Positions 15,637 to 29,496 of a stretch of 36,394 nt of DNA are shown here, piece by piece (the stretch's first letter is position 1; each line of letters opens with the position of its first letter). The translations under genes and the position numbers were made by a program. Source of the stretch: Lachnospiraceae bacterium (lineage in GTDB: Bacteria; Bacillota; Clostridia; Lachnospirales; Lachnospiraceae); the NCBI GenBank assembly GCA_017431515.1, contig JAFRKV010000039.1:1-36394 (forward strand), read 5' to 3'. The notes under the pieces are model-generated. The model made no database searches. It saw nothing but the letters and a program-made list of their open reading frames with translations, and was not told where the DNA came from.

Positions 15637-17840
15637 GACCTGCCTACCTCTTTTTGCAGTTCTTTTCTCAGATAAGTCCTTAAGATCTCATCCAGTCTGA
15701 CAGGGTCGATGGGCTTGGCAAGGAAATCGTTAAATCCCGCCTCCTTATAAGCCTTTTCAGCGCCGCTCAGGGCGTTTGCCGTCAACGCGATCATGACAGC
15801 GTCCTTCCCGCCTTCCCTTGCGCGGATCCGTTGCATAGCCTCCACGCCGTCCATCTCCGGCATCATATGATCCATAAAAATGATGTCAAAGGGCTTCAGC
15901 CGTTCAAAGCACTGGATCGCGGCCTTTCCGCTTTCCACCGTGATCGGATTGATCTCATAGGATTTCAGCGCACTCTTAGCAACCTTCAGGTTCACGGAGT
16001 TGTCATCCACCAGCAGAACCTTTGCGTCCGGCGCTTTCATGGTCACCCGGAAAACATCCGTGTTGATCCTGGAAAGAGCCTTCTCAATGTCCCCGATGGG
16101 CTGCCAGTCTGTCACGTCGCTCATGATCTCGAAGGAAAAGATCGAGCCCATCCCATAGACGCTGTCCACTTCCATTTTGCCGTTCATCATATGCACCAGG
16201 CGCTTGGAGATCGCAAGCCCGATCCCTGTGCCGTCACCGGATCGGTTTCGCCTGGTATCCACCTGATTGAAGAAGTCAAAAATGTGAGGCAGATCCGATT
16301 CTTTGATGCCGGTCCCGGTATCCCTTACACGGGCTTTGATGCGGCATCTTTCATTGCCGAGCCTCTCATAATTCAGGCTGAGCTCCACACTGCCTTCATT
16401 GGTAAATTTCACGGCATTGGAAAGAATATTCAAAAAAATCTGTCTGACGCGCACCGCGTCCCCGATCAGATTGTCCGGGAAATCCGGATCCACATGGACA
16501 ATCAGCTCTATTTTCTTGTCTTCTGCCGTCACCTTTATCATGGCGACCACATCGTTGATCAAAGAAGACATCTGATATGGCTCGCAGACCAGATTCATCT
16601 TTCCGGATTCGATCTTGGAGAAATCCAGGATATCGTTGATGATGGCAAGCAGCGTATGTGCCGCGGAGTTGATCATGGCGGCATTCTTTTTGGTTTCCTG
16701 ATCCGGGCAGTCCCGCAGGATCGTCTGTGTCATGCCGCTGATCACATTCATGGGTGTGCGGATTTCGTGGGACATGTTGGCCAGGAAATTGCTTTTGGCC
16801 TGATTGGCGCTGTTCGCTTCCAGCACCAGCTCCTCTTCCTTCGTGATGTCATTCATCGTCAGGATATACCCGTACGGCTCGCCGTAATCATCCAGAGCCA
16901 CCGTCATATTGACCGCAAATTTCCGGTTATCCCCCGGGATTTTGCTTTTGAAGAGAATATTGGATTCCTTTTGCAGACGGTCGAGGATCTCTTCCTTCGT
17001 CTGCTCCAACGTCAGGATCTTTTCGATGTTCTCCCCTTCCGTGACCCCGAGTTCTTCCCGGGCAAACCGGTTCAAAACGATCACGTCCAGTGCCTCATCC
17101 ATGATGACGATCCCTTCACTCACCACATTCTGGGCATAGCTCCCCATTGTCTGAGAAGAGATGGAAAAAGCATTGTACTTTTCCGTCGCAAGATACCAGA
17201 GGAGGACGGAAATACCGGCTCCGAGGCCGGACAGCGGCAATCCGTAATTCATCCATCTGACCAGGAAGGTATCGGGGATCGCGCAAACCGCGATCACGAT
17301 ATTGGCGACCAGAATGCCGTAAAGAAGCTTTTTTTCCCGTTTGTGGGTGATGTTCTTGAACCAGAAAAACCAGGCAGAAAAGCCCACCGAGCAGACCACA
17401 ATGATATAGATGGTGTGAAAGGTTCTTTCCGGACAGGGAACAGCCTGAAAGGCTGTCCAGTTTCCGACTTGAATAAAATGATCGACACCGGGTCTGGAAT
17501 AGAGCATCCAGTCCGCAAACGCGTATCCGGCCAGCACAAACCGGATCAGATAGCGCCATTTGCGGGACAGCTTTGTCTTTTTCAAACCCAGAAAGGTCTC
17601 CACCAGCGGATAAGATACCACACCGGCCAGCGCGAGTCTCCGAAACCATACACAAAGCTCCGGATCCGGACACAATCCGACCATCCCGTATCCAATGGGC
17701 CAGATTCCTGCAGACAGGCCGAGAATCAACAGGGTCAGCCGAAAATAACCCGCATCCTTCTCTCTCCGAAAGAACAAGATGCCGTAAATGATCGAATGGC
17801 TGCCGACCACAATCAGGCTTACGCTTAATGCAACTCCCAT
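15633..17840 (-). CDS. Hybrid histidine kinase (7TM, PAS, HK, receiver)
   Basis: A 735-residue membrane sensor kinase. Residues 1 to about 217 hold some seven membrane helices of the HisKA_7TM type; about 235-335 is a PAS domain (EGIVIMDEALDVIVLNRFA and YILTMNDITKEE). The dimerisation domain has phospho-acceptor His358 in MSHEIRTPMN. The ATPase domain has the N box with Asn474, DTGTGI at 507-512 and GDGTGIGL at 535-542. The C-terminal receiver (about 605-728) has Asp612/613, phospho-acceptor Asp657 and Lys709. All catalytic residues are present. With the adjacent HD-GYP-receiver and Hpt genes it can form a His-Asp-His-Asp relay. The start ATG at 17840 is close behind GGGGGAGAG; the gene begins 12 bases after its neighbour ends. 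Confidence 0.95.
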   Translation of the reverse strand: MGVALSVSLIVVGSHSIIYGILFFRREKDAGYFRLTLLILGLSAGIWPIGYGMVGLCPDPELCVWFRRLALAGVVSYPLVETFLGLKKTKLSRKWRYLIRFVLAGYAFADWMLYSRPGVDHFIQVGNWTAFQAVPCPERTFHTIYIIVVCSVGFSAWFFWFKNITHKREKKLLYGILVANIVIAVCAIPDTFLVRWMNYGLPLSGLGAGISVLLWYLATEKYNAFSISSQTMGSYAQNVVSEGIVIMDEALDVIVLNRFAREELGVTEGENIEKILTLEQTKEEILDRLQKESNILFKSKIPGDNRKFAVNMTVALDDYGEPYGYILTMNDITKEEELVLEANSANQAKSNFLANMSHEIRTPMNVISGMTQTILRDCPDQETKKNAAMINSAAHTLLAIINDILDFSKIESGKMNLVCEPYQMSSLINDVVAMIKVTAEDKKIELIVHVDPDFPDNLIGDAVRVRQIFLNILSNAVKFTNEGSVELSLNYERLGNERCRIKARVRDTGTGIKESDLPHIFDFFNQVDTRRNRSGDGTGIGLAISKRLVHMMNGKMEVDSVYGMGSIFSFEIMSDVTDWQPIGDIEKALSRINTDVFRVTMKAPDAKVLLVDDNSVNLKVAKSALKSYEINPITVESGKAAIQCFERLKPFDIIFMDHMMPEMDGVEAMQRIRAREGGKDAVMIALTANALSGAEKAYKEAGFNDFLAKPIDPVRLDEILRTYLRKELQKEVGRS

Positions 17841-17852
17841 CTCTCCCCCGTC

Positions 17853-19298
17853 TCAGCGATCCATGTTCTTGTCCAGCGCAATCTCGATCCGCTCCCGCAG
17901 GTAGATCGGATTCACAGGCTTTAAGATATAATCCTTTGCGCCGACTTTATTGCACCGGAGCACGGTATCCCTGTTTGCGATGGCCGTCAAAAACACTACC
18001 GCCAGATCCTGATGGGTGGCGCGTATGGTCTCCACCGTGGACAAGCCGTCCATCTCCGGCATATCGATATCCATAATCAGCAGATCCGGCGCACCCTTTA
18101 CCTCAAGGTATTTGAGACATGCGGCTCCGCTTTCCAGCGTTGTAATGTCATATTCATCCTGCAGCGCCGATCTCGTCTGGTCCAGGGAGATCTTGCTGTC
18201 ATCCACCACAAGAATCTGCTTTCTCTCCCGTCCCTCATCGGAAGCCCCGTTTTTGGTGTCGATCCCGGAAATGGACTCTTTCATGAGATAGCCGGAATCC
18301 TTGATAAACACCATCCGATACCGAAGATCACTGCTCAGATCCACTTCTTTTCCGGTTTCATAGATCTTGATGCGGGGCCGCAGAGACTGCGTCGTGTGTC
18401 CGGTTACCACCGCTCTTTCCCCGTTGGAAAGGATGACATCCATTCCCGGCGGATAAGGCGGAATCACAGTCTGTACCGTCTCCACCACAGTAATATCAAA
18501 GAGAATCCCGGCACCGCCGATCAGGTATTCCAGCGCCTCAACGGGCGGACATGGATCCTTATAAGGGCGGTTACTGGTCAGTGCGTCAAACACGTCCACG
18601 GCATGGATGATCTTGGCATAGAGCGGGATCTCTTCTCCTGTTTTTCCGTAGGGATACCCGGATCCGTTTTCGTTCTCATGATGGGACAGTACCGCCATCC
18701 GGATCTTCAGGTTGACCACGGGGTTGGAGGAGATCAGCTCATAGCTGTACTGCGGATGACGCCGGATCTCATCAAACTCCGCATCCGTAAGTCTGTCTTT
18801 TTTATTCAGGATCATGGGGTCGATCCGGATCTTGCCCAGATCATGGCAGAGCGCCGCGATCGCCACCTCATTCAGTTCGTTGATGGAAAGGCCCATTTTA
18901 ATGGCAACCGCCACCGCATAGATCGCGACGTTGACCGTATGGTGATAGGTATAGTCATCAAAAGAGCGGATATCCAGAAGATCCAGACTGATCTCTTCCA
19001 TGGAGGAGATCTCCATGATCAGGTTGGAGGCTGCCTGCATGATGCCGTCGATATCCACACTCGCAACTGCGTCAATGGCTGCCTCGATGGTTTTTTCGCT
19101 GACTGCCTCCTCCACCTTGATATCCTTGGAAAAGGAGTCTGTGATGTATGCGCCGAGATAGCCGTCCTTTTTCAGACGCGCGATGAATTTTGGGGTCAGC
19201 TCGACGCCCCTTTCCAGCAGAGTGGCCTTATTGCGTGTGTGAATCTTTCTTCCCAGAATCATGCCCGGTTTCAGGTCAGCTGTCGCAACAAATCTCAT
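17853..19298 (-). CDS. HD-GYP phosphodiesterase with C-terminal receiver
   Basis: A 481-residue cytosolic protein that should hydrolyse cyclic di-GMP (or a related dinucleotide). Residues 1-60 form a small N-terminal domain often found with HD-GYP. The HD-GYP domain spans about 115-270 with HDLGK (152-156), HHENENGSGYP (206-216) and the later DVFDALTSNRPYK. The canonical Asp before G-x-GYP is Asn here (ENGSGYP). A receiver domain at about 361-475 has Asp366/367, Asp410 and Lys460. This is the reverse of the common order, in which the receiver comes first. ATG at 19298 has GGAGGG. It starts 14 bases after the Hpt gene, so phosphoryl flow Hpt to receiver is plausible. Confidence 0.93.
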   Translation of the reverse strand: MRFVATADLKPGMILGRKIHTRNKATLLERGVELTPKFIARLKKDGYLGAYITDSFSKDIKVEEAVSEKTIEAAIDAVASVDIDGIMQAASNLIMEISSMEEISLDLLDIRSFDDYTYHHTVNVAIYAVAVAIKMGLSINELNEVAIAALCHDLGKIRIDPMILNKKDRLTDAEFDEIRRHPQYSYELISSNPVVNLKIRMAVLSHHENENGSGYPYGKTGEEIPLYAKIIHAVDVFDALTSNRPYKDPCPPVEALEYLIGGAGILFDITVVETVQTVIPPYPPGMDVILSNGERAVVTGHTTQSLRPRIKIYETGKEVDLSSDLRYRMVFIKDSGYLMKESISGIDTKNGASDEGRERKQILVVDDSKISLDQTRSALQDEYDITTLESGAACLKYLEVKGAPDLLIMDIDMPEMDGLSTVETIRATHQDLAVVFLTAIANRDTVLRCNKVGAKDYILKPVNPIYLRERIEIALDKNMDR

Positions 19299-19312
19299 GT
19301 CTCTCCCTCCAC

Positions 19313-19918
19313 TTACCTCAGTGCCCTTAGCTTTTCACAACACGATGCTACAGCATCCGTATCCAAGTCACGGACGGCCGGCTCCATTTCTTTTACAATC
19401 GCCCCGTATAACGAAGGAATGCTCATGGACTGGATGGCTTCAAATGCTTCCTGGAGCGATGAAATATCAAAAGACTGCATCGCGGCATCCAATTTTTCCA
19501 CCAGCGCAAAAAAACGCTCCTCGTCATATTCCTGCGCCACATCGCAATCGCCGGTGATGATCTTGAAGCTTTCCGCCAGCTGCAGAAAGGCTTCACAAAA
19601 AGAAGCCGTATCCTTATCGATGGGCAGAAGGTTTTCTTCTTTTCCGGCGGTCTCCAGTGCAAACGCGCTGTCAAACAGGTCTGAACCGAGAGAGCGCAGG
19701 GCAGCCTTCATGGCATGCGCCTGAATCCGGTAGGAAGCGAAGTTTTCCGGACTGGGATTTTCCAGCACTTTCCCCTGATATTCCTTCAGAAGCGCAGTCT
19801 GCTTCTTCGCAGAACTGACAAACTCCGTCAGAACATTGCGTAAAACCTCTTTCTCCGGGATATAGCGGTGCGCTGTCTCCCAATCAATTCCCGCGATTTC
19901 CGGCAGATCGTAATCCAC
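19313..19918 (-). CDS. Histidine phosphotransfer (Hpt) domain protein
   Basis: A 201-residue, mainly helical cytosolic protein. Residues about 10-100 fit an Hpt four-helix bundle, with phospho-acceptor His68 in AHAMKAALRSLGSDLF, followed by ALETAGKE. The second half (about 110-201) is helical and unrecognised; it could be a second, degenerate bundle. GTG at 19918 is the start because it follows CGGAGG at seven bases. It is the first gene of the four-gene operon Hpt / HD-GYP-receiver / hybrid kinase / DMT transporter and probably passes phosphate from the hybrid kinase receiver to the HD-GYP receiver. Confidence 0.82.
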   Translation of the reverse strand: MDYDLPEIAGIDWETAHRYIPEKEVLRNVLTEFVSSAKKQTALLKEYQGKVLENPSPENFASYRIQAHAMKAALRSLGSDLFDSAFALETAGKEENLLPIDKDTASFCEAFLQLAESFKIITGDCDVAQEYDEERFFALVEKLDAAMQSFDISSLQEAFEAIQSMSIPSLYGAIVKEMEPAVRDLDTDAVASCCEKLRALR

Positions 19919-19971: not shown

Positions 19972-20027
19972 CCACAGATCCACAATAAACACCACTTTTC
20001 TTCAGGAAACACCCGAGAATCACACAC

Positions 20028-20062
20028 AAAAAAGTTCCTCTCCGGACGATGCCGGGAGGAAC
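20028..20062 (-). terminator. Terminator of the sulfur/encapsulin operon
   Basis: On the minus strand GTTCCTCCCGG (20062-20052) pairs with CCGGAGAGGAAC (20045-20034) and is followed by six T residues. It lies 20 bases past the stop of the serine acetyltransferase gene and is the only good terminator found between that gene and the operon promoter near 28650. Confidence 0.9.
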
Positions 20063-20081
20063 CTGTTCCTTACCATTACTT

Positions 20082-21041
20082 TCAGATCGTATAGAACCAG
20101 GACTCGTTCATCTCGATCTCTTTTCGCTCAATCGGATGCCCGGAATCATAGTTGTAGGTAAGCTCCTGACTCTTGACACTGACTCTTGCGCCCTCCGGAA
20201 TGGAGGTGGTAATAAACGCATTGCCACCAACCACCACATCTTTTCCGACAACGGTATCTCCGCCGAGGATCGACGCCCCGGAATAAATGGTCACGTTATC
20301 CGAAATGGTGGGATGGCGCTTCACGTTTTTCAGGGTTTGTCCCCCGCGGGTAGAGAGAGCTCCCAGCGTTACGCCCTGATAGATCTTGACATTATCCCCG
20401 ATCACGGTGGTTTCACCGATGACGACGCCGGTTCCGTGATCAATGAAGAAATACTTCCCGATGGTGGTGCCGGGATGGATATCAATCCCCGTGATGCTGT
20501 GGGCATGCTCCGTCATGATCCGCGGGATCATCGGCACTTCTAAGAGATACAATTCGTGCGCGATCCGATTGGTCATCGTCGCATACAGACCCGGATAAGT
20601 GCAGATGATCTCATCCTTGTTGTAGGCCGCCGGATCTCCATCAAAGGCCGCCTGCACGTCTGTTTCGATGTATTCTCGGATCTTCGGAATCTTTTCCAGA
20701 AACGCAAAAGTAATGTGATCCGCCGCCAGTGTAATCGCTTCCGGATCCGCATGCTCATACTGCGGCACATACTTCAGCACGATCCCCAGCTGCGCCTTGA
20801 GATTATAGATCACATCCTCCAGCAGCATGGTGATATTATTCCGTACCGTATAGGTCTTAAAGCTGCTGTTCCTATAATACCCCGGGTAAACGATCTTTTG
20901 GAGTTTCTCCAGGATATCCACCACTTTTTTGCGGTTCGGATGCTCAAAGGTCTTAATCTGATCGATCACCTTTCCGCCGCGGTAATCCTCGATAAAGAGT
21001 TCCACCAGACGGTCGATCTTCTGCTCCATTTCCTGTACCAT
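20082..21041 (-). CDS. Serine O-acetyltransferase (EpsC-like)
   Basis: Transfers acetyl from acetyl-CoA to L-serine to give O-acetylserine, the acceptor for sulfur in cysteine synthesis. The 319-residue protein has a helical N-terminal half and a left-handed beta-helix from about 175. Key motifs are HSITGIDIHPGTTIG, FFIDHGTGVVIGET (His202) and YQGVTLGALS, followed by hexapeptide repeats. It is longer than Escherichia coli CysE and resembles the EpsC type. ATG at 21041 follows GGAGG. It is the last gene of the ten-gene sulfur operon, 12 bases after the TusA-like gene. Serine acetyltransferase genes are known neighbours of family 2A encapsulins. No cysteine synthase (CysK/CysM) gene is in the window. 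Confidence 0.93.
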   Translation of the reverse strand: MVQEMEQKIDRLVELFIEDYRGGKVIDQIKTFEHPNRKKVVDILEKLQKIVYPGYYRNSSFKTYTVRNNITMLLEDVIYNLKAQLGIVLKYVPQYEHADPEAITLAADHITFAFLEKIPKIREYIETDVQAAFDGDPAAYNKDEIICTYPGLYATMTNRIAHELYLLEVPMIPRIMTEHAHSITGIDIHPGTTIGKYFFIDHGTGVVIGETTVIGDNVKIYQGVTLGALSTRGGQTLKNVKRHPTISDNVTIYSGASILGGDTVVGKDVVVGGNAFITTSIPEGARVSVKSQELTYNYDSGHPIERKEIEMNESWFYTI

Positions 21042-21053
21042 GCAAGCCTCCGT

Positions 21054-21302
21054 CTAGTCGCCGACCTTTTTAATATACAGTTCAAAGGTGCCGTCGCCGT
21101 TGTCCTCGAGTTTCAAAACCTCATGTCCCTCTTCTTTGATGCTTCTCGGAACATTCTGCACCGGCTCTCCGTCATTCAGATGCACCTGGAGGATCTGCCC
21201 TTCCTCCAGTTCCTCCAGTGCCACTTTTGTCTTTACAAACGTGACCGGGCAGTTGACATCCGTAATATCCACCTTATCATCTACTTCAAAATCAAGTGCC
21301 AT
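21054..21302 (-). CDS. TusA-like sulfurtransferase
   Basis: An 82-residue protein of the TusA/SirA family, which carries sulfur as a persulfide on a conserved Cys. The first strand VDITDVNCPVTFVKTK holds the candidate Cys18; the usual CPxP motif reads CPVT, so the second Pro is lost. The expected two-layer alpha/beta pattern (EELEEGQILQVHLND, then NVPRSIKEEGHEVLKLE) is present. ATG at 21302 has an AGGAGGAG site lying inside the end of the JAMM gene, overlapping it by 11 bases. Within the operon it could relay sulfur between the desulfurase and the E1/carrier pairs. Confidence 0.85.
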   Translation of the reverse strand: MALDFEVDDKVDITDVNCPVTFVKTKVALEELEEGQILQVHLNDGEPVQNVPRSIKEEGHEVLKLEDNGDGTFELYIKKVGD

Positions 21303-21738
21303 GATTTGCTCCTCCTATGACCAGTTCTTCTTTTCTCACGGTTTTCTCCCCGTCCACCGTCTCAATATGAAAGGCATTTAAGACCGGCTTTCCCTCTTCC
21401 TGCAGAGAAAGGATCAGATAGCTGGCGCTGCTGTCATTGGCCAGTTTTTTATCCTCCTCCGATGGACGTGAGGGGCTTTCCGGGTGGGAATGCCAGTTTC
21501 CAAGCGGCTTCAGACCGTTCTGGCGCATATCTTTTACCGCTTTCAACTGTTCCCTCGGATCGATGCTGAAATGTTCATTGGTATGATCCTTATTGGTAAG
21601 CAGGTATACCTTTTGAATATCCCGGGATCCGTCTTCGTTCTCAATTCCCGCGATCAGGCCGCACGCCTCATCCGGCCGCTCTTTCATGGCATATTCATAC
21701 ATGCTGTCAAAATCAGACTGTTTCAGGGTAATCCGCAT
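21292..21738 (-). CDS. JAMM/MPN zinc peptidase, copy 1
   Basis: A 148-residue M67-type isopeptidase-like protein (JAB1/MPN/Mov34). It has the full zinc motif: Glu24 in EACG, then H83-S-H85-P with Ser93 and Asp96 (HxHx7SxxD). Bacterial members act on ubiquitin-like sulfur carriers, either removing residues beyond the Gly-Gly end or releasing an amino acid attached to it. The adjacent carrier (22575-22784) ends in GGGAS, a natural substrate for such trimming. The gene starts 21 bases after the E1-like gene with GGAGGGAG upstream. Confidence 0.92.
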   Translation of the reverse strand: MRITLKQSDFDSMYEYAMKERPDEACGLIAGIENEDGSRDIQKVYLLTNKDHTNEHFSIDPREQLKAVKDMRQNGLKPLGNWHSHPESPSRPSEEDKKLANDSSASYLILSLQEEGKPVLNAFHIETVDGEKTVRKEELVIGGANHGT

Positions 21739-21759
21739 TCGGTTGGTCTCCCTCCTGAT

Positions 21760-22575
21760 TCAAGTGTTTTGTTTCAATTCACACGCCGCCTGTTCATAAT
21801 CGATTAGTTTGGTGATGGTGGGCGTATCCGAGCAGACCGCGCATCCCTTTCCTCTGGGCGGCAGTTTGATCTTATGAAACTCCATTTTCAGCGCATCATA
21901 GGTCAGGAGATATCCGGAAAGGAGTTCTCCCACACCGGTGATGAATTTGACTGCCTCCATCGCCTGCAGGGACCCGATGACGCCGCCCATCGCGCCGATC
22001 ACCCCCGCCTGTTTACAGGTGGGTACCGCATCCTTTGGCGGCGGATCTTTGAAAATGCATCTGTAACAAGGCCCTTCTCCCGGCAAAACCGTGGTGAGCT
22101 GGCCCTTAAACCGGATGATACCCGCATGGGAAAAGGGCTTTTTTGCCATCACGCATGCGTCATTGATCAGAAACTTCGCCGGAAAATTGTCGGTTCCGTC
22201 CAGAATAAAGTCATAATCCGCAATGAGATCCAGAATGTTGGCGCTGCTGACAAACTCATGGTAGGTATTTACCGTCACATCCGGGTTGATGGCATGCATG
22301 GTCTCTGCTGCCGATTCCACCTTCTGCTTCCCGATATCATTCGTCGTATGAATCACCTGTCTCTGCAGGTTGGAAAGATCCACATTATCGGCATCCGCGA
22401 TTCCGATGGTGCCGACACCGGCAGCGGCGAGATAGAGCGCCGCCGGGGCACCAAGGCCCCCGGCACCGATGATCAGCACTTTTGCGTTCAGAAGCTTTTT
22501 CTGCCCCTTGACACCGATCTCTTTTAAGATGATATGTCTGGAATAGCGCTCCAGCTGTTCATTTGTAAATGCCAT
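21760..22575 (-). CDS. E1-like adenylyltransferase (MoeB/ThiF/HesA type)
   Basis: Activates the C-terminal glycine of a ubiquitin-like carrier by adenylation, prior to formation of a thiocarboxylate. The 271 residues are a complete MoeB/ThiF domain: nucleotide-binding GAGGLG at 37-42, Asp61/Asp63 with NLQRQ (69-73), and zinc Cys pairs C170-x-x-C173 and C245-x-x-C248. A candidate catalytic Cys187 is in VPTCKQAG. No rhodanese domain is attached. Its ATG shares bases with the stop of the ThiS-like gene (TAATG), which strongly suggests it acts on that carrier. It is not likely to be a plain thiamine enzyme because no other thiamine genes are nearby. Confidence 0.93.
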   Translation of the reverse strand: MAFTNEQLERYSRHIILKEIGVKGQKKLLNAKVLIIGAGGLGAPAALYLAAAGVGTIGIADADNVDLSNLQRQVIHTTNDIGKQKVESAAETMHAINPDVTVNTYHEFVSSANILDLIADYDFILDGTDNFPAKFLINDACVMAKKPFSHAGIIRFKGQLTTVLPGEGPCYRCIFKDPPPKDAVPTCKQAGVIGAMGGVIGSLQAMEAVKFITGVGELLSGYLLTYDALKMEFHKIKLPPRGKGCAVCSDTPTITKLIDYEQAACELKQNT

Positions 22576-22784
22576 TATGACGCGCCTCCTCCCATAAAAT
22601 AGAGGAATTCCACTTCATCTCCCTCTTTCAGCACATGGCTTTGGAAGGCATCCTTGTCAATAAACTCCTCGTTGACAGAAACCGTCACATACTCCGGTGT
22701 TTCCACCTGTTCCAGCTCGATCAGTTCCGCGATGGTCAGGTTTTCCTTCACCTCTTTTTTTTCTCCGCCAACTGTGATCTTCAT
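22575..22784 (-). CDS. ThiS-like ubiquitin-fold sulfur carrier with C-terminal tail
   Basis: A 69-residue beta-grasp protein of the ThiS/MoaD type. It has the typical strand pattern MKITVGGEKKEV, a helix LTIAELIEL, a VSVNEEFI strand and the end DEVEFLYFMGGGAS. The Gly-Gly that should be activated is followed by further residues (Gly-Ala-Ser if the first two glycines are the active pair). So the protein probably needs trimming before the E1 can act, and a JAMM peptidase gene lies two genes downstream. The codons for GGG double as the ribosome binding site of the E1-like gene. AAAGGAG lies 12 bases before its ATG. Confidence 0.9.
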   Translation of the reverse strand: MKITVGGEKKEVKENLTIAELIELEQVETPEYVTVSVNEEFIDKDAFQSHVLKEGDEVEFLYFMGGGAS

Positions 22785-22848
22785 AGCGCTCTTATGCTCC
22801 TTTCAAACCATTTTTCCGGCTCAGCACGTCATCCTGTTGCAGTATCCC

Positions 22849-24444
22849 TCATGCAAATGTTTTCAGCACCTTTACAAGTGCATCAATATCATCAAATGAA
22901 TTATACAGCGCAAGGGTCGGCCTTACTGTGCTCTCATATCCAAAACGCCGCAGCACCGGCTGTGCGCAATGGTGTCCCGTGCGAACCGCGATGCCATAGG
23001 CATCCAGTCTCTTTCCGACCTCTTCATCCGAATAGCCATCCAGCTTAAAAGCCAAGGCCGAAGCCTTGTTTAAGGCCGTTCCTACCATGTGAAGACCGGG
23101 AACGGTGCTCATCTCTTTCATGGCATATTGCAGCAATTCGTGCTCCCAGCGGTAAACACAGGGCATTCCAATCTCCGAAAGGTACTGCAGCGCGGCGCCA
23201 AGCCCCACCGCATCGGCAATGCTCCCGGTGCCGGCCTCGAATTTGTTCGGCGCCGGATTATAGATCGTGCGTTCAAAGGTCACATCCGCGATCATATTGC
23301 CGCCGCCGTGATAGGGACGGGCTGCCTCCAGCAGTTCTTTCTTGCCGTACACCACCCCGATCCCGGTAGGCGCAAAAATCTTGTGACCGGAAAAAACGAA
23401 AAAGTCGGTATCCATCGCCGCCACATTCACCGGAATATGCGCGACAGACTGCGCGCCGTCGATCAGGATCCGCACGCCATGCCTGTGCGCAATGGCGATC
23501 AGCTCCTCCACCGGTGTCACAGTGCCGAGGACGTTGGAAACATGAGTGACGGATACGAATTTCGTCCTTTTCGTAAACAGCTTCTCATATTCCGGGAGGA
23601 TCAGCTGCCCTGACTCGTCACAGGGGATCACCTTAATCACCGCGCCGGTTTCCTCAGCCACAAGCTGCCAGGGTACGATATTCGCGTGATGCTCCAGGAT
23701 CGATACGATGATCTCATCACCGGGCGTCAGCATCGGCTTGACGTATGCGTTTGCCACCAGATTGATGGCTTCCGTGGTGCCGCGGACAAACACAATCTCT
23801 TCCGAAGACGGTGCACCGATGAAATCCCTCACAATATCTCTGGCGCCTTCATAGGCATCGGTGGATTTTGCCGCCAAGGTATGCGCGCCGCGGTGAACAT
23901 TGGAGTTTTCGTGCTCATAATAGTAAGAAAGTCTGTCGATCACAGCCTTCGGGCGCTGTGTCGTGGCACCGTTGTCAAGCCACACCAGACGATTTCCGTT
24001 GATCTCCTCCGAAAGAATCGGAAAATCACTGCGGATCTGGGCAAGGGTCTTGCTGCCGATGCGAATAGACTCGTCTCTGGAGGAATACGGCGCCGCCTCT
24101 CCCTTCTCCCTGCTCACGCTGTCGCCGCCCAAAGAGGTGGGGGCGTCTATCGCGCGATCCTGCTCCGCTGCCTGAGACTGGGACATGACAGAAGGCGCAT
24201 AACTGACAGAGGGCGCTTCCGTATAAAAAGGAGTGGGGATCTCCGGTATGGAAACCGGTGTCTCCGGCACGGACGCAGCAGGAATCTCCGGCACAGGCTG
24301 CGGAGTCGCAGGCACGGATACCGGTGTCTCCGGCGCGGACGCAGGCGTAGCAAGACCCCCCGTCAGATCCGGAAACAGTTCATTGGCGAGAATCGTAAGC
24401 TCTTCCGCGCTTGGCACACCCGCCAGCTGCTCAATCGTAGTCAT
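22849..24444 (-). CDS. SufS-like cysteine desulfurase, putative encapsulin cargo
   Basis: A PLP enzyme of 531 residues that takes sulfur from cysteine as a persulfide. The class V aminotransferase domain (about 135-531) has PLP-binding Lys355 in FSGHKIFAP, HH at 252-253, and persulfide Cys493 in RTGHHCAQP. The first 130 residues are unusual: a short helix-like motif SAEELTILANELFPDL, then a Pro-rich stretch with repeats of PETPVS and PEIP, then a polar linker. Such long disordered N-termini are known for cysteine desulfurases carried by family 2A encapsulins, where they serve cargo loading. ATG at 24444 (after GGTGAG) is preferred over GTG at 24453. It overlaps the shell gene by 14 bases. Confidence 0.93.
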   Translation of the reverse strand: MTTIEQLAGVPSAEELTILANELFPDLTGGLATPASAPETPVSVPATPQPVPEIPAASVPETPVSIPEIPTPFYTEAPSVSYAPSVMSQSQAAEQDRAIDAPTSLGGDSVSREKGEAAPYSSRDESIRIGSKTLAQIRSDFPILSEEINGNRLVWLDNGATTQRPKAVIDRLSYYYEHENSNVHRGAHTLAAKSTDAYEGARDIVRDFIGAPSSEEIVFVRGTTEAINLVANAYVKPMLTPGDEIIVSILEHHANIVPWQLVAEETGAVIKVIPCDESGQLILPEYEKLFTKRTKFVSVTHVSNVLGTVTPVEELIAIAHRHGVRILIDGAQSVAHIPVNVAAMDTDFFVFSGHKIFAPTGIGVVYGKKELLEAARPYHGGGNMIADVTFERTIYNPAPNKFEAGTGSIADAVGLGAALQYLSEIGMPCVYRWEHELLQYAMKEMSTVPGLHMVGTALNKASALAFKLDGYSDEEVGKRLDAYGIAVRTGHHCAQPVLRRFGYESTVRPTLALYNSFDDIDALVKVLKTFA

Positions 24445-25390
24445 AATACTCACCCACTTCTACATCTTCCAGTACACCGATGGCATCATCCGCAAGAATC
24501 GCCGCGGAGCAGTACAAAGACAGAAGGTAGGAAGCTACTCCCTTGTCGTCAATTCCGCGGAACCGCACGGAAAGGCCTCTGGAATGCTCATTCTTCATGC
24601 CGGCCTGGAAAAGTCCGACAACACCTCTCTTTGCCTCACCGGTACGAATCAGCAGGATATTGGTCTTGCCGCTCTGGGACTTCGGATTCTTCAACCCGTC
24701 CACGAGAAGCTTATCTGTCGGCACGATCGGAATGCCTCTCCAGGTAAGGAACGTGCCGCCGGAAATACCGATGGTGACAGGCGGGACGCCTCTCTTGGTG
24801 CACTCTCTCTCAAATGCCGCGATGGCTCTCGGATGCGCCAGGAAGAAGGAAGGCTCCTTCCACACCTTGGAAATCAATTCATCCAGATCATCCGGGGTAG
24901 GTGCGCCGTTTCTGGTCTGAATCCGCTGAGAATCCGCAACGTTCTTCAGCAGACCGTAGTCATCGTTGTTGATGAGCTGGCTTTCCTGACGCTCCCGCAG
25001 AGACTCGATCGCCAGTCCCAGCTGCTCCTGTACCTGGTCATAGGGTGCGCTGTATACATCCTCGATCACCGTATTGACATTGATGATTGTGGAAATGGAA
25101 TTCAGCCGGTACTCACGGGGCTGTGTCTCATATGCCACATAGCCCTGCGGAATGATATCCGACTTTTTCGTTGCGCTGCAAAGGACATCCAGCGGCGTTT
25201 CGCCCTCCACCACCTTATTCACGCGGTAGATGCCGGATTCCAATCCCTTAAACTCCAGAAATTTCGTCAACCACTTGGGCGTCAGCGCCCCGAACTGCGG
25301 CTTTGTCTTCGTGACGTTGGCCAGATTGTAGGCTTCCTGTGCTCCCAAAGCCTGAATGATGTCTGTTGCTTCTGTGTTTTCTTTTGCCAT
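24431..25390 (-). CDS. Encapsulin shell protein, family 2A type (SrpI-like)
   Basis: A 319-residue shell protein with the HK97 fold expected to self-assemble into a nanocompartment. It resembles the SrpI-type family 2A: start MAKENTEATDIIQALG, the PQYGxLTPKWL-like segment at about 31-41, NSISTIINVNTVIEDVY, and a C-terminal part with FRGIDDKGVASYLLSLYCSA. Its length is that of family 2A, and it lacks the cyclic-nucleotide domain found in family 2B. I recognise it by overall pattern and neighbour: the next gene is the matching cysteine desulfurase. ATG at 25390 is set by a strong AGGAGGG site; frame upstream of it is non-coding. A 73-base gap precedes it, the longest in the operon, perhaps with its own expression control. 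Confidence 0.88.
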   Translation of the reverse strand: MAKENTEATDIIQALGAQEAYNLANVTKTKPQFGALTPKWLTKFLEFKGLESGIYRVNKVVEGETPLDVLCSATKKSDIIPQGYVAYETQPREYRLNSISTIINVNTVIEDVYSAPYDQVQEQLGLAIESLRERQESQLINNDDYGLLKNVADSQRIQTRNGAPTPDDLDELISKVWKEPSFFLAHPRAIAAFERECTKRGVPPVTIGISGGTFLTWRGIPIVPTDKLLVDGLKNPKSQSGKTNILLIRTGEAKRGVVGLFQAGMKNEHSRGLSVRFRGIDDKGVASYLLSLYCSAAILADDAIGVLEDVEVGEYYDYD

Positions 25391-25463
25391 TTGATGTTCC
25401 CTCCTAAAAGATGTTTGTTTAGTTGCTATATGAAAGCCTTCCAGCCTCACATTCTTTGATTGA

Positions 25464-26921
25464 TTACAGCCACGCTCCCTCATGGGAGAACATGATGTCC
25501 TTCATGGCGTCGATCCCGCCCTTCAGGTTATACAGCGATCCTTTGTATCCGGCTTCTCTTAAAGTATTGATGGCGAGAATGCTCCGTTTTCCTTCCTTAC
25601 AGATGAAGATGGTATCCTTTTCCGGATCCAGCTCATTCTGCCTTCTGGCCAGCTGTCCGATGGGAATCACGATCGCATCCGGGAAACGCAATATCGCGCG
25701 CTCATGCGGCTCGCGGACATCCACGATCGTCATGGCATCGCCGTTTTCGATCCGGCTCGCCAATTCCTCCGGCGTGAAGCCTTCGATGACTGCCTCCTCT
25801 TCGGTTTCCTTCAGACCGCAGAACTCCTCATAGTCAAAATCCTCTACCTCGGTAATGACAGGATGTGTCCCACACAACGGACAGGACGGATTCTTTTTGA
25901 TCTCCACGATCCTGGACTTCAGATACAGACTGTCGATGATCAGCAGTTTCCCGGAAAGGTGCTCTCCGATGCCGATGATCAACTTCAACGCCTCATTCGC
26001 CTGAATGCTTCCGATGATTCCGGGCAACGGGCTGATGGCGCCCCCCTGCGCGCAGGTCGGTACCAGACCGGCCGGCGGCGGTGCCGGAAACGCGCATCGA
26101 TAGCAGGGGCCGTCGTTCAGATGGAACACGCCCACCTGTCCCTCATATTGATAGATCGCGCCGAAAACCAGCGGAATCCCGCATAAGCCGCAGGCATCAT
26201 TGATCAGATATCTCGTTTTATAATTATCCGTGCAGTCGATCACCATATCATATCCATCGATGAGCTCCGCAGCATTGCCGGCATCCAGCCTGACAGCCTC
26301 CGCCTCAAACACGATGGTTTTATTGATATTCCGGACTGTATCCTTTGCCGAAGCGACCTTTGGACGTTTCAGATCCCTGGTGGAATGGATCACCTGACTT
26401 TGCAGGTTGGAGAGGGAAACTTCATCATCATCCACCACTTTGATGGTACCCACACCCGCTGCCGCCAGATACTGGATCACGGGTGCGCCCAAAGCGCCTG
26501 CACCGATTACCACCACCCGCGCCGTCTTGATCCGTTTCTGCCCTTTGACGCCGATCTCGGACAGCATGAAATGTTTCTCGAAGCGTTCGATCTCCGCATC
26601 GTCAAAGGAGACAGCTTTTCGCCTTTCATCCGGAATAATGCTTTTCGCCGGTGCACCGCCTGCAATGGCCGGCAGGAGCAAGACGTCTTTCCCCGGCGGG
26701 AGAGGTTTTACCCAATGCTCTGTGGCGGTCCAATCATGTTCTCCCGCATAAATCCTAATAAAACTCCGGAGTGTTCCGCCTTCTTCAAACAAAACTTTTT
26801 TTGCATCCGGGTATTCTCCGGTCAGCGCATCCAAAACGCCGCGAATGGTATCCGCATCCGTAGAAAATGCAGCATTCTTTCCGAAAAACCCTCTTAATGT
26901 AGCAGAAATCAGAACCTGCAT
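25464..26921 (-). CDS. Fusion: MoaD-like carrier + E1 adenylyltransferase + rhodanese
   Basis: A 485-residue, three-part protein. Residues 1 to about 89 look like a MoaD/ThiS beta-grasp domain ending in DVLLLPAIAGG, but the Gly88-Gly89 pair is followed directly by APAKS and a linker. Residues about 108-365 are a MoeB-type E1 with GAGALG (140-145), NLQSQ, zinc Cys pairs C273/C276 and C347/C350, and Cys290 in VPTCAQGG. Residues about 382-485 are a rhodanese with Cys441 in CKEGKRS. Separate MoeZ-type E1-rhodanese proteins are well known; the carrier fused in front is not usual and would need cleavage after Gly-Gly. A JAMM gene overlaps its start by 13 bases. ATG at 26921 follows AAAGGAG. Confidence 0.93.
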   Translation of the reverse strand: MQVLISATLRGFFGKNAAFSTDADTIRGVLDALTGEYPDAKKVLFEEGGTLRSFIRIYAGEHDWTATEHWVKPLPPGKDVLLLPAIAGGAPAKSIIPDERRKAVSFDDAEIERFEKHFMLSEIGVKGQKRIKTARVVVIGAGALGAPVIQYLAAAGVGTIKVVDDDEVSLSNLQSQVIHSTRDLKRPKVASAKDTVRNINKTIVFEAEAVRLDAGNAAELIDGYDMVIDCTDNYKTRYLINDACGLCGIPLVFGAIYQYEGQVGVFHLNDGPCYRCAFPAPPPAGLVPTCAQGGAISPLPGIIGSIQANEALKLIIGIGEHLSGKLLIIDSLYLKSRIVEIKKNPSCPLCGTHPVITEVEDFDYEEFCGLKETEEEAVIEGFTPEELASRIENGDAMTIVDVREPHERAILRFPDAIVIPIGQLARRQNELDPEKDTIFICKEGKRSILAINTLREAGYKGSLYNLKGGIDAMKDIMFSHEGAWL

Positions 26922-27346
26922 GATGCCGCAGCTCCTTTCTCAATTCTGATCGGAACGGGTTTTTTTGGGTCCGGCTCTTTGGCATAACCCCGCAGTTCCT
27001 TTTCAATCCCCTGTTCAACAGACAGAATCCAATAGCTGATGCCGGGAATCATATATGCAAGATCTTCCGACGAAGGGATCGGCGGGCTGTCCGGATGAGA
27101 ATGATAAATGCCGAGCATCTCCATTCCTCTCTTTTCAGCCTCACACTCCGCCTGATAGACAATCAGCGGATCCATTTCAAAATGCCTCCGGCTGTTTTGT
27201 GCCGATACCACGTTTTGCACCGGAAAGGCATATCTGATCTCTCTTTCCCGGCCAAACAGGATCCCGCAGCACTCTTTCGGATAGGCCCGACGCGCCTCTT
27301 TTGTCATCTCCTCATATGCTTCGTTGCTGCATGTAAAGCAATTCAT
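26909..27346 (-). CDS. JAMM/MPN zinc peptidase, copy 2
   Basis: A 145-residue M67-type protein, only distantly similar to copy 1. The zinc motif is complete: Glu25 in ECCG, H82-S-H84-P, Ser92 and Asp95. The N-terminus has Cys at 3, 6, 26 and 27. Of the known relatives, some remove C-terminal residues from sulfur carriers and some (Mycobacterium Mec) release cysteine from the carrier. It overlaps the carrier-E1-rhodanese fusion by 13 bases and the MetY-like gene by 4 (ATGA), so it is tightly coupled to both and is the best candidate to process the fusion. Confidence 0.92.
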   Translation of the reverse strand: MNCFTCSNEAYEEMTKEARRAYPKECCGILFGREREIRYAFPVQNVVSAQNSRRHFEMDPLIVYQAECEAEKRGMEMLGIYHSHPDSPPIPSSEDLAYMIPGISYWILSVEQGIEKELRGYAKEPDPKKPVPIRIEKGAAASCRF

Positions 27347-28587
27347 CCGTTTTGCTCCCTATCCGCGTTTTGGATGGCTTCCGTAAAGTCCGCGATCAGA
27401 TCCTCCGGATCTTCGATCCCGACACTCACCCTTACCGTATCCTCATATACGCCGGCTTCTTCCCTTTCCTCTTTGGTCGAATGGAGATACAGCGTGGAGG
27501 CCGGATGGATCACCAGGGTGCGCAAATCCCCGATATTGCTTGCGATCAACGCGTATTTCAAAGCATTGATGATCCGAAATGCCCTCTCCTTTGTCCCTGC
27601 GCGGAAGGTCAGCACACCGCCGCCCTTTCCGTTCAGTTCCTTTTTGACATATGCATGATACGGATGGTTTTCCAGCGTCAGGTAATTCACCTCGATCCCG
27701 TGGATCGCATCCAGTGCGTGGGCCAGGCGATCCGCATTGTCGCAGATCCGCTCCATCCGAAGTCCCAATGTATCCAGTCCGATGTAATTCAAAAAAGCAT
27801 TGACCGGCGAGAGGCATCCGCCAAAGTTTTCCCAGATATCCGTGCGCAGCCTGACAGAAAATGCGCCTTTTCCGTATTTTTTGAATTCGGAAAGCGCGGC
27901 ATGTTTTTCAAAATCCCAGGCAAATCTGCCGCTGTCCGCGACAATCCCGCCGATGGCATTTCCACCGCCGTTGATATATTTGGAGGTGGAATGGATCACG
28001 ATATCCGCACCCAGCGCGATTGGCCTTGCCAGATATGGGGTCGCGGTCGTCGCATCCACAAGCAGCGGAATCCCCGCCTCATGCACTGCCCCGGCAACTT
28101 CAGGAATATCAAGCACCCGAAGGGAAGGATTGGAAATCAGTTCTCCGAAAACAGCCCTGGTCTTTCCGGTGATCCGTTCCGCTACCGCCGCTCCGGTCAG
28201 CTCTCCGGCAAAAACCGTATGAATGCCAAGCTTCTCCAAATCCCGCAGCAGATCGATCGTTCCTCCGTATAAACCGCTTCCCGCAATGATCTCATCCCCG
28301 CTCTCGCAGATGGCAAGCAGCGCTGCCGTGATGGCTGACATCCCGCTGCTGCAACAGACCGCATCCGCGCTGCCTTCCAGAGAAGCGATTCTCCGCTCAA
28401 AGGCGCTCAGCGTCGGGTTCCCGATGCGCGTGTAGGCATAACCCATCTTCTTGTGGGAGAAGACTCTCTCCAAATCCTCCATGCTTTCATAACGAAACGC
28501 CGCAACCTGTGAAACCGGCGGAAGGATCTCCCCGCCGGGATTGACCGGTATGGCTTTTCCATGGAGTAATTCGGTATGAAATCCCAC
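27343..28587 (-). CDS. MetY-like O-acetylhomoserine/O-acetylserine sulfhydrylase
   Basis: A PLP enzyme of the Cys/Met metabolism family, 414 residues. Family signs are PPVSQVAAF, YAYTRIGNPT, SSGMSAI, the DATTATPYLARPIALGAD region and PLP Lys203 in HSTSKYINGGG. MetY enzymes exchange the acetyl group of O-acetylhomoserine for sulfur. In systems such as that of Wolinella the sulfur comes from a carrier thiocarboxylate. The start is set to GTG at 28587, with AAGGAG nine bases upstream; the frame continues to 28647 but that part lies inside the promoter. First gene of the sulfur operon. Substrate preference (homoserine or serine ester) cannot be told by eye; a gamma-lyase is less likely but possible. 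Confidence 0.9.
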   Translation of the reverse strand: MGFHTELLHGKAIPVNPGGEILPPVSQVAAFRYESMEDLERVFSHKKMGYAYTRIGNPTLSAFERRIASLEGSADAVCCSSGMSAITAALLAICESGDEIIAGSGLYGGTIDLLRDLEKLGIHTVFAGELTGAAVAERITGKTRAVFGELISNPSLRVLDIPEVAGAVHEAGIPLLVDATTATPYLARPIALGADIVIHSTSKYINGGGNAIGGIVADSGRFAWDFEKHAALSEFKKYGKGAFSVRLRTDIWENFGGCLSPVNAFLNYIGLDTLGLRMERICDNADRLAHALDAIHGIEVNYLTLENHPYHAYVKKELNGKGGGVLTFRAGTKERAFRIINALKYALIASNIGDLRTLVIHPASTLYLHSTKEEREEAGVYEDTVRVSVGIEDPEDLIADFTEAIQNADREQNG

Positions 28588-28630
28588 AGCGCTCGTCTCC
28601 TTTACGATGGATAAGATGGATATGTTCTTT

Positions 28631-28659
28631 TTTATATCATTATTCACCTACTATGTCAA
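28631..28659 (-). promoter_or_regulatory. Strong promoter of the sulfur/encapsulin operon
   Basis: On the minus strand a consensus TTGACA (28659-28654) and TATAAA (28636-28631) are exactly 17 bases apart. Transcription would start around 28624, giving a leader of about 37 bases before the GTG start. The leader is too short for a riboswitch or T-box, so control must act on the promoter itself. Confidence 0.85.
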
Positions 28660-28664
28660 TAGGT
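28646..28664. promoter_or_regulatory. Palindromic operator over the -35 box (Rrf2-like)
   Basis: ACCTATTGACATAGTAGGT on the minus strand is a dyad with half-sites ACCTAyT and ArTAGGT around its centre. It covers the whole -35 box and part of the spacer, where a bound repressor would block RNA polymerase. Rrf2-family regulators such as CymR and IscR, which control cysteine and Fe-S metabolism, bind dyads of this size; the assignment to that family is inference. Confidence 0.45.
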
Positions 28665-28713: not shown

Positions 28714-29496
28714 TTACACGTTATTTCTCGTTTTCAGGAAAAAGGTTTCCAGCTTTTGGAGTAAGGTGGCTTTGTCAATGGTTTTCAGCAGATAATCCGC
28801 AGGTTTTAAGCCTACCACCGAAAGGACGCTCTCCTTATCCCCGTGCCCGGTCAGAAACATCACCGGGATATGACCGGTCTCGGAATCGTTTTTCAGCATC
28901 TCGAGCACCTGGGATCCGCTTGCAATGGGCATCTCATAATCCAAAAGCACGAGATCCGCCTTGTTTCTGGCAAGGTAACTGATGGCCTGCATCCCGCTGG
29001 AAGCCATCCCCACATGATAGCTGTCCTTCAGCCACTCATAGACAGTACGCATGTAGGTGATATCGTCGTCGACGATGAGCACGGTCTTTTTCCGGTTCTC
29101 GCCGGTATTGTCCACGATGTATCGCTGAACACGCTCGATCAGATCGTCCATGACGAGGGGGCGTTTAAAGAACTCCAGGATCAGCATGTCCGGAATGGTC
29201 TTAAGGGCGGCCTCATACTGTATCGCATCTCCGATCAGGATCATTTTCCGATCCAGATCACTGGCCAGATCCTTCAGATAGACGAGCGTGTCCTTCATTT
29301 CCTCGATATTATCACTGAGGAACAGGATCATCAGCTCGATCTCATCCCGCATCCCGTCAATATCTTTGATCTTGCCGTGGGAAGATAAGGTGGGGAGTCC
29401 TGCTGATTCCAACTTGGACAGCAGACTCTTCGCAAGAAAACTCTCTCCTTCACTGATCACCAGCACTTTGTGATGTGCCAGATCCTGATAACTCAT
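28714..29496 (-). CDS. Response regulator: pseudo-receiver plus receiver
   Basis: A 260-residue cytosolic protein without DNA-binding or enzyme domain. Residues 8-128 look like a receiver fold that has lost the phospho-acceptor (FLSDNI in the fourth-strand region but no typical Asp/Lys set). Residues 137-258 are a true receiver: Asp143-145 (VDDD), phospho-acceptor Asp186 in LLDYEMP, Thr216 in LTGHGD and Lys238. It starts ten bases after hpf with GAGGAGA, so the two are co-transcribed. It may accept phosphate from the Hpt protein at 19313-19918, since no kinase is adjacent; this is a guess. Confidence 0.88.
   Translation of the reverse strand: MSYQDLAHHKVLVISEGESFLAKSLLSKLESAGLPTLSSHGKIKDIDGMRDEIELMILFLSDNIEEMKDTLVYLKDLASDLDRKMILIGDAIQYEAALKTIPDMLILEFFKRPLVMDDLIERVQRYIVDNTGENRKKTVLIVDDDITYMRTVYEWLKDSYHVGMASSGMQAISYLARNKADLVLLDYEMPIASGSQVLEMLKNDSETGHIPVMFLTGHGDKESVLSVVGLKPADYLLKTIDKATLLQKLETFFLKTRNNV

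Follow-up and report, generated by a model that had tools for sequence, protein, structure and literature searches.

Ten minus-strand genes of a Lachnospiraceae bacterium (assembly GCA_017431515.1, contig JAFRKV010000039.1) run from position 28659 to position 20026 of the 36,394 nucleotides (nt) analysed here, hereafter the window, and are bounded by a promoter and a terminator. They join a family 2A encapsulin and an adjoining cysteine desulfurase, its probable cargo, to two sets of genes for ubiquitin-like carriers, a combination within one operon that suggests a protein-made route from caged sulfur to amino acids. In gene order, the features are as follows:

28631..28659 (-), promoter TTGACA-N17-TATAAA; 1 match in the window versus 0.03 expected
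27343..28587 (-; longest frame to 28647), MetY-like O-acetylhomoserine/O-acetylserine sulfhydrylase; PF01053, 1.4e-101
26909..27346 (-), JAMM1 metallopeptidase; PF14464, 1.1e-23, full JAMM motif
25464..26921 (-), ubiquitin-like (UBL)-E1-rhodanese fusion, one protein of 485 residues
26655..26921 (-), CysO-like UBL domain of the fusion, residues 1-89, ending in Gly88-Gly89; 3dwg_C, E 4.2e-5
25866..26612 (-), E1 domain of the fusion, approximately residues 104-352, Cys290; ThiF family match and motif
25503..25775 (-), rhodanese domain of the fusion, residues 383-473, Cys441; family match and motif
24431..25390 (-), family 2A encapsulin shell protein, 319 residues; NF041162 above cut-off, match to SrpI in the PDB
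22849..24453 (-), SufS-type cysteine desulfurase CyD with an N-terminal extension of about 135 residues, probable cargo; NF041166, Cys496, Lys358
22575..22784 (-), ThiS-like carrier, C-terminus GGGAS; TIGR01683 above cut-off
21760..22575 (-), second E1, ThiF/MoeB type, without rhodanese; PF00899, 1.2e-87
21292..21738 (-), JAMM2 metallopeptidase; PF14464, 2.1e-25, full motif
21054..21302 (-), TusA-like sulfurtransferase; PF01206, 1.8e-21
20082..21041 (-), serine O-acetyltransferase, CysE/EpsC-type; TIGR01172, 1.8e-47, EpsC 149.2 bits
20026..20075 (-), terminator hairpin with U run; -20.4 kcal/mol, z -2.8

Five of the nine gene junctions overlap (by 4, 13, 23, 1 and 11 nt) and the other four are gaps of 73 (the maximum), 64, 21 and 12 nt; the two widest gaps gave z-scores of -0.6 and +0.5 on folding, with no notable hairpins. 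At least one match to the promoter was present in 3 of 100 shuffles. A stock promoter/terminator scan of the window did not list it because that scan demands a final T in the second hexamer; the totals of the scan (8 promoter-like and 10 terminator-like sites) were no excess over its own shuffles. Since the promoter overlaps the longest MetY frame, translation of MetY more probably starts at the GTG at 28587, which is preceded by AAAGGAG. An earlier annotation made from the sequence alone (the original prediction) had proposed ten same-strand genes between a consensus promoter and a terminator, and this was borne out by gene calls, families, junctions and the hairpin; by the same features, the ten genes presumably form a single transcript. 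The protein families that it had named likewise stood, with one correction: one UBL and the rhodanese are domains of the E1 fusion and add no genes of their own.

Shell, cargo and carrier enzymes

The encapsulin scored 484.7 bits against the family 2A model NF041162 (cut-off 380) and 377.7 bits, below the cut-off of 400, against the family 2B model, while residues 18-318 of its 319 aligned to the solved SrpI shell 6x8m with an E of 2.8e-107. Only PF19307 was found in the 319 residues, and the cyclic nucleotide monophosphate (cNMP)-binding insertion, the lack of which defines family 2A (PMC8346489), is thus absent. (Papers are cited by PubMed Central accession.) The shell protein is therefore a family 2A encapsulin, as originally predicted, and very likely adopts the HK97 fold. 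A phage capsid identity is ruled out by the curated encapsulin model and the near full-length matches to solved family 2A shells.

The gene adjoining the encapsulin encodes CyD, which passed the SufS model TIGR01979 (538.5 bits, cut-off 475.1) and fell narrowly below the cut-off of the desulfurase cargo model NF041166 (780 versus 800 bits). The alignment to the latter spans residues 135-532 and leaves the N-terminal domain unaligned, a domain that is probably disordered, to judge by its low-complexity letters. CyD is the best SufS match of its genome (539.8 bits; runner-up 165.1), and in the related loci described below the desulfurase loop is kept in 97 of 102 frames of at least 400 residues. 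CyD is a probable cargo of the encapsulin. A second desulfurase-like stretch of the same genome (G000:C40:92326-93468) is broken by an in-frame TAG.

The catalytic parts in place in the operon include the cysteines of the first E1 and the rhodanese, Cys496 and Lys358 of the desulfurase, the MetY lysine and both JAMM motifs. The alignment of the UBL domain of the fusion with the 3dwg chain, which we take to be CysO, extends to the final residue of that chain, as does the alignment of a separate UBL. The predicted structure of the fusion reached a mean predicted local distance difference test (pLDDT) score of 80, with segments below 50 at residues 85-90 (the Gly-Gly junction), 289-294 (at the E1 Cys290) and 482-485; a VIA-align comparison of this model covers mainly residues 104-362 and barely the UBL part. 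Across loci, the E1 cysteine motif is present in 77 of 80 frames of the first E1 (E1a) and in 32 of 34 second-E1 frames, and a strict rhodanese loop pattern fits 65 of 80 E1a frames. The two E1 proteins of the operon are 44% identical and make up two of the three ThiF-family matches in the genome. The MetY-like protein, with the O-acetylhomoserine/O-acetylserine sulfhydrylase 8sf5 as its best solved match, stays below the cut-off of TIGR01326 (385.7 versus 495.1 bits), and the acetyltransferase is below both of its cut-offs (TIGR01172; EpsC, 149.2 versus 150).

Conservation and history of the encapsulin-carrier link

We compared 80 loci, the best of 563 relatives listed by similarity to six encapsulins; as five of these six bear the carrier module, frequencies among the loci are not those in nature. 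A locus was counted as having the module if it held an E1a match within 8 kb on the same strand, a definition also applied in the encapsulin tree. By this measure, E1a lies near the encapsulin in 72 of the 80 loci, 5 lack it and 3 are cut off. Two cases were set by hand: L075, where the E1 frame runs into the encapsulin, was counted as having the module (the 76-locus count below treats it as lacking E1a), and L028, whose match is an isolated ThiF-type frame of 228 residues some 5 kb upstream, as lacking it. Among the 76 loci with at least 1.5 kb of upstream sequence, E1a was found in 70, in 69 of them no more than 400 nt upstream of the encapsulin, a JAMM gene in 62 (together with E1a in 61 of the 70), a sulfhydrylase in 53, an acetyltransferase in 46, ThiS plus the second E1 in 27 and all ten kinds in 16, numbers that are lowered because contigs end. 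Where the flanks were long, at least 4 kb upstream and 6 kb downstream (39 loci), the counts were 37 for E1a, 37 for JAMM, 34 for the sulfhydrylase, 30 for the acetyltransferase and 21 for ThiS plus the second E1. The original prediction had named conservation of the gene set in related genomes as its test, and with E1a near the encapsulin in most loci and JAMM alongside in 61 this test was passed; conservation across loci also led us to reject chance clustering of the ten genes.

By deposited labels, which for many loci belong to metagenome bins (many of them from rumen and termite gut), the module loci fall into nine phyla: Bacillota (46), Fibrobacterota (7), Spirochaetota (6), Pseudomonadota (3), Synergistota (3), Planctomycetota (2), Thermodesulfobacteriota (2), Lentisphaerota (1) and Myxococcota (1), plus one unranked. 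The kind of sulfhydrylase varies with the architecture of the UBL. MetY lies upstream only where the UBL is fused (22 of 52 fused versus 0 of 20 split loci), and CysK upstream in 15 of 20 split versus 9 of 52 fused loci; CysK was seen in 25 of the 72 module loci altogether. In L023, L041, L061 and L083, sulfate-assimilation-type genes adjoin the operon; the names CysN, CysD and ApsA for such neighbours were given by eye, Pfam returning only FAD_binding_2 and NIR_SIR in the two scanned. In L023, a sulfite-reductase-type protein with NIR_SIR and ferredoxin domains (L023:4435-5304) lies inside the operon between MetY and TusA. Pseudobutyrivibrio xylanivorans MZ8 (L032), a cultured relative, has genes for JAMM, E1a, the encapsulin, CyD and the acetyltransferase.

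The carriers share a conspicuous feature at their ends. The motif [IVM]AGG was found in 77 of 78 UBLs, and the zero entropy of the UBL pattern itself proves nothing because the pattern demands this motif; the statement rests on that count and on an alignment (A3). A87, G88 and G89 are invariant across 25 aligned fusions. Beyond the Gly-Gly, 20 of 21 separate UBLs extend by 1-49 residues, 33 of 34 ThiS carriers extend by 1-6 residues beyond FMGGG, and in 52 of 56 fused UBLs (a list that omits L104 with its 469-residue E1 frame) Ala or Ser comes next; in the alignment, the solved ThiS chains 1f0z and 1tyg reach only as far as residue 67 of the 69-residue window carrier. As Gly-Gly is followed by a variable tail or linker in nearly all carriers, JAMM probably also matures them, even by cutting the UBL from its own E1. 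The JAMM motif is complete in all frames of the two kinds (61 and 33), which in the window are 30% identical to each other, and the JAMM proteins of the operon are the only two Prok-JAB matches of the genome, which is 82% complete. L055 (CADBQY010000075.1) is the only locus with a UBL lacking Gly-Gly; a cysteine-rich stretch follows, and no JAMM gene was seen in 8.9 kb upstream. In L085, a 471-residue fused frame upstream of the encapsulin at 9998 has its UBL Gly-Gly abutting the start of E1 with no linker, looking as if only the inter-gene stop codon had been lost. In L075 (9191-10945), an E1-rhodanese frame of 584 residues continues without a stop into the encapsulin frame, the first E1 part being in another frame; this reflects either a real E1-encapsulin fusion or sequence errors.

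Of the 107 encapsulins in a tree, 87 (79 with the module, 5 without and 3 cut) group with a Shimodaira-Hasegawa-like approximate likelihood ratio test (SH-aLRT) support of 99, and addition of an Aliarcobacter row gives a group of 88 with support 86. The module thus essentially marks one encapsulin clade; the tree was quickly built, and with its long branches and open forks it should not be read in fine detail. A group of eight encapsulins from Fibrobacter (support 100) is nested among rows of Lachnospiraceae, and a 34-row set of E1 proteins (support 99) that contains the window also takes in seven from Fibrobacter; both placements would follow from movement of the operon as one unit. Distances in the encapsulin and E1 trees correlate (Mantel r 0.574 over 73 loci, a value reached in none of 1000 permutations; L055, L059, L071, L079 and L080 were dropped for want of the anchor motif), although some correlation is expected from near relatives alone. 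To account for the UBL-E1 fusion, a single change suffices on the E1 tree (support 77) and the encapsulin tree needs two, and we infer as the older form the order CysK-JAMM-UBL-E1.rhodanese-encapsulin-CyD-acetyltransferase. The added row is from the Campylobacterota plasmid pACIB of Aliarcobacter cibarius (L130:3007-12333), which carries genes for a cysteine synthase, an M67 peptidase, MoaD/ThiS, an E1 stretch, a rhodanese, the encapsulin, CyD and cysE. On pACIB, an IS5-family transposase gene interrupts the E1 stretch between MoaD/ThiS and the rhodanese, and an IS110 gene lies upstream. When the fusion protein was compared with plasmids, the best identity, 52.8%, was to an Aliarcobacter plasmid (among the matches listed, 25 of 422 records).

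Evenly drawn genome samples gave a different picture of frequency. Among relatives, 6 of 61 genomes exceeded the encapsulin cut-off, with the module in the window genome (G000), G002, G003, G040 and G044 but not G049. In the class sample (7 of 391), it was present in G000 and G368, absent from G283 and G292, also from G169 and G237, whose shells of about 480 residues are as in family 2B, and cut in G395. In the phylum sample (7 of 398), G000 and G773 had it, G494, G633, G657 and G748 did not, and G808 was cut. In the class of Enterobacter sp. 10-1 (5 of 274), only this strain, the chosen centre of the sample, had the module; G909, G942 and G971 did not, and in G1035 an acetyltransferase gene lies directly upstream of the encapsulin, followed by the contig end. 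No DNA nearly identical to the Enterobacter sp. 10-1 operon was found in E. coli genomes. The module is likewise absent from encapsulin plasmids of Azospirillum, Variovorax, Synechococcus and Methylosinus. With so few module genomes, the variant is a rare accessory trait. The full fusion was seen in 2 of the 391 class genomes (G000 and G368), both with an encapsulin, at up to four candidates scored per genome; 42 others gave E1-only matches. The bin behind L084 (G833, labelled Synergistaceae) has four encapsulin places, three of them above the cut-off and one truncated at a contig end.

A proposed sulfur route and its alternatives

Encapsulins of this type are reportedly used to store elemental sulfur, as Benisch et al. 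are said to have described in 2024. In the route we propose, the family 2A shell would hold the SufS-type desulfurase via its N-terminal extension, and cysteine entering the shell would yield alanine together with sulfane sulfur, to be retained in elemental form or as persulfide or polysulfide. Sulfur may exit as a small persulfide and be caught outside by the rhodanese cysteine of the fusion or by TusA. The E1 would adenylate the Gly-Gly end of the carrier on the way to a thiocarboxylate, rhodanese and first E1 presumably serving the CysO-like UBL, and TusA and second E1 the ThiS-like carrier. The sulfur could then pass to O-acetylserine, provided through the operon acetyltransferase, or to O-acetylhomoserine by action of the MetY-like enzyme, in whose place many relatives have a CysK type; JAMM would next cleave the carrier-amino acid adduct and free cysteine or homocysteine. 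JAMM would also mature the carriers, which for the window UBL would require a cut at Gly89-Ala90 to release it from the E1 it is fused to. Cargo loading, all transfer steps, the direction of flow and both JAMM roles are what we infer; the gene set, its linkage, the conserved catalytic residues and the Gly-Gly with variable extensions are observed. The original prediction, that shell sulfur would be passed to the carriers for cysteine or homocysteine synthesis, is supported in part.

The components of this route have precedents. SrpI-CyD systems (PMC8049743, PMC8346489) share the shell family and an adjoining SufS-type cargo with N-terminal extension, as well as serine acetyltransferase and rhodanese, which PMC8346489 names as accessories of family 2A encapsulins. 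In the window, however, the rhodanese belongs to an E1 fused to a UBL, a JAMM gene is added, and a second carrier, second E1, second JAMM, TusA and MetY are present as well; S. elongatus pANL and four other encapsulin plasmid types are without these additions, Aliarcobacter excepted. The operon type 4c of Iyer et al. (2006; PMC1779556), to which the CysO-CysM-Mec+-MoeZ system (PMC3227635) is akin, comprises a carrier, E1-rhodanese, JAB and a cysteine synthase; CysO is thiocarboxylated with MoeZ and serves CysM (PMC3227635). The window shares with it the Gly-Gly carrier, the E1 with rhodanese and the JAMM, and many of its relatives also the CysK-type synthase; it differs in that a MetY-like enzyme replaces CysK, the UBL is fused to E1 with a non-terminal Gly-Gly, and encapsulin and CyD are part of the operon. 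Type 4e (PMC1779556) has a carrier, an E1 without rhodanese, JAB, SirA, a sulfhydrylase and sulfate assimilation, and both PMC6225789 and PMC5764234 cite work on Wolinella in which methionine is made by way of a thiocarboxylate. Type 4e and the Wolinella pathway resemble the window in their ThiS-like carrier, E1 without rhodanese, JAMM, SirA/TusA and sulfhydrylase. In the window, this set is joined to the 4c-type module and the encapsulin, sulfate assimilation genes are absent from the ten genes of the operon, and no CysD match was found in the 82%-complete genome. The window operon thus in effect equals 4c plus 4e plus encapsulin, CyD and acetyltransferase. The proteins of the Wolinella homocysteine pathway are HcyS, HcyF, HcyD and MetY.

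The fusion, too, has parallels. UBL-ThiF fusions in Campylobacter jejuni and Pelobacter propionicus (PMC1779556) likewise have the UBL N-terminal to E1, with sulfhydrylase and cysteine synthase genes adjoining in Pelobacter; in the window, a rhodanese follows E1 and a JAMM gene is adjacent, and the passages of PMC1779556 on these fusions mention no encapsulin. MoaX, a MoaD-MoaE fusion that must be cut between Gly82 and Ser83 by a protease left unknown in PMC4326299, shares with the window fusion an N-terminal ubiquitin-fold carrier and a Gly-Gly followed by a small residue at the junction, but its partner is MoaE, whereas that of the window UBL is an E1 with an adjoining JAMM gene, where cleavage is predicted. 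Both carrier modules have been known since 2006 (PMC1779556); no report of their joining to encapsulins was found among the matches listed in searches of the open literature (subscription papers, preprints and supplements being outside this scope), and the words ubiquitin, JAMM and MoeB are absent from the main text of PMC8346489. In the one paper among the matches listed that deals with an encapsulin, the ubiquitin-like term refers to a SUMO tag.

On balance, the operon is best explained by caged storage of sulfur with withdrawal through ubiquitin-like carriers, a reading that we favor to a modest degree over everything else taken together. Several points weigh against it. With CyD expected within the shell and E1-rhodanese beyond it, sulfur would have to cross in the form of a small diffusible species, and since CyD destroys the cysteine that the carrier route makes, the two arms must be separated in time. 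Outside the clade, most shells do without the module (0 of 16 evaluable encapsulin rows have it), and even five loci within the clade (L081, L091, L097, L098 and L106) have encapsulin and CyD without E1a. In L054, L071 and L096, all from partial genomes, a Gly-Gly UBL and E1a are kept with no JAMM in the available DNA. Furthermore, the predicted fold of the encapsulin reached a pLDDT of just 33, and this model was not used.

There might instead be a one-way shunt without a store, in which persulfide of CyD continuously feeds the rhodanese and TusA, the shell only contains reactive sulfur, and carriers and MetY-like enzyme turn cysteine sulfur into homocysteine, equivalent to transsulfuration without cystathionine. 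That MetY rather than CysK heads the operon in this genus, that CysK is encoded elsewhere in the genome (above cut-off), and that a desulfurase is considered in PMC3227635 as the probable source of sulfur for MoeZ would fit such a shunt. The CysK-type upstream enzymes of split-UBL relatives, which never have MetY there, and the common acetyltransferase gene point to cysteine synthesis, however, and direct contact between CyD and rhodanese would be hindered by encapsulation; we regard the shunt as unlikely. Less probable still, the shell-CyD, CysO-type and HcyS-type genes might form a sulfur-starvation regulon without shared flux, with the carriers using sulfide or thiosulfate. Encapsulin-CyD pairs do occur without carriers, carrier operons (PMC1779556) are likewise found with no encapsulin, sulfur starvation induces SrpI (PMC8049743), and the sulfate-assimilation-type neighbours in L023, L041, L061 and L083 could be read along these lines; yet the position of E1a within 400 nt upstream of the encapsulin in nearly all loci, across nine labelled phyla, is tighter than co-regulation alone needs, and the lack of a CysD match speaks against it as well. 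To a very small extent, we also reckon with a compartment switch of the ubiquitin type: E1 would attach the UBL to shell or cargo and JAMM would remove it, the compartment opening or closing at sulfur shortage, with the timing set by the fusion, which would act only once cut. Archaeal tagging works without E2 or E3. The UBL matches the SAMP1 model (E 1.3e-8) and the best model for both JAMMs is desampylase, all below curated cut-offs; the nearest solved UBL is nevertheless the 3dwg chain, SAMP chains scoring far weaker, and the sulfhydrylase and acetyltransferase genes of the operons point to amino acid synthesis.

According to PMC8049743, the physiological role of the encapsulin may emerge from what becomes of the cysteine sulfur, and PMC3227635 states that the source of the sulfur loaded on CysO remained unknown. 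The operon supplies named acceptors for encapsulin sulfur, and both gaps would close in one ten-protein system if the route holds true. A bacterial JAMM would then also gain a genetically linked fusion substrate, in parallel to the processing of ubiquitin fusions.

Neighbouring genes

The genes flanking the operon are of other kinds: a response regulator, an HD-domain regulator, a ribosome hibernation factor and a short-chain dehydrogenase. The gene upstream of the operon ends in a hairpin of its own (28716-28664, z -6.8). Signal-transduction genes on the same strand lie on either side (window positions 15633-19918 and 28714-29496) and encode a histidine kinase-receiver hybrid, an HD-domain regulator with receiver and a receiver protein.

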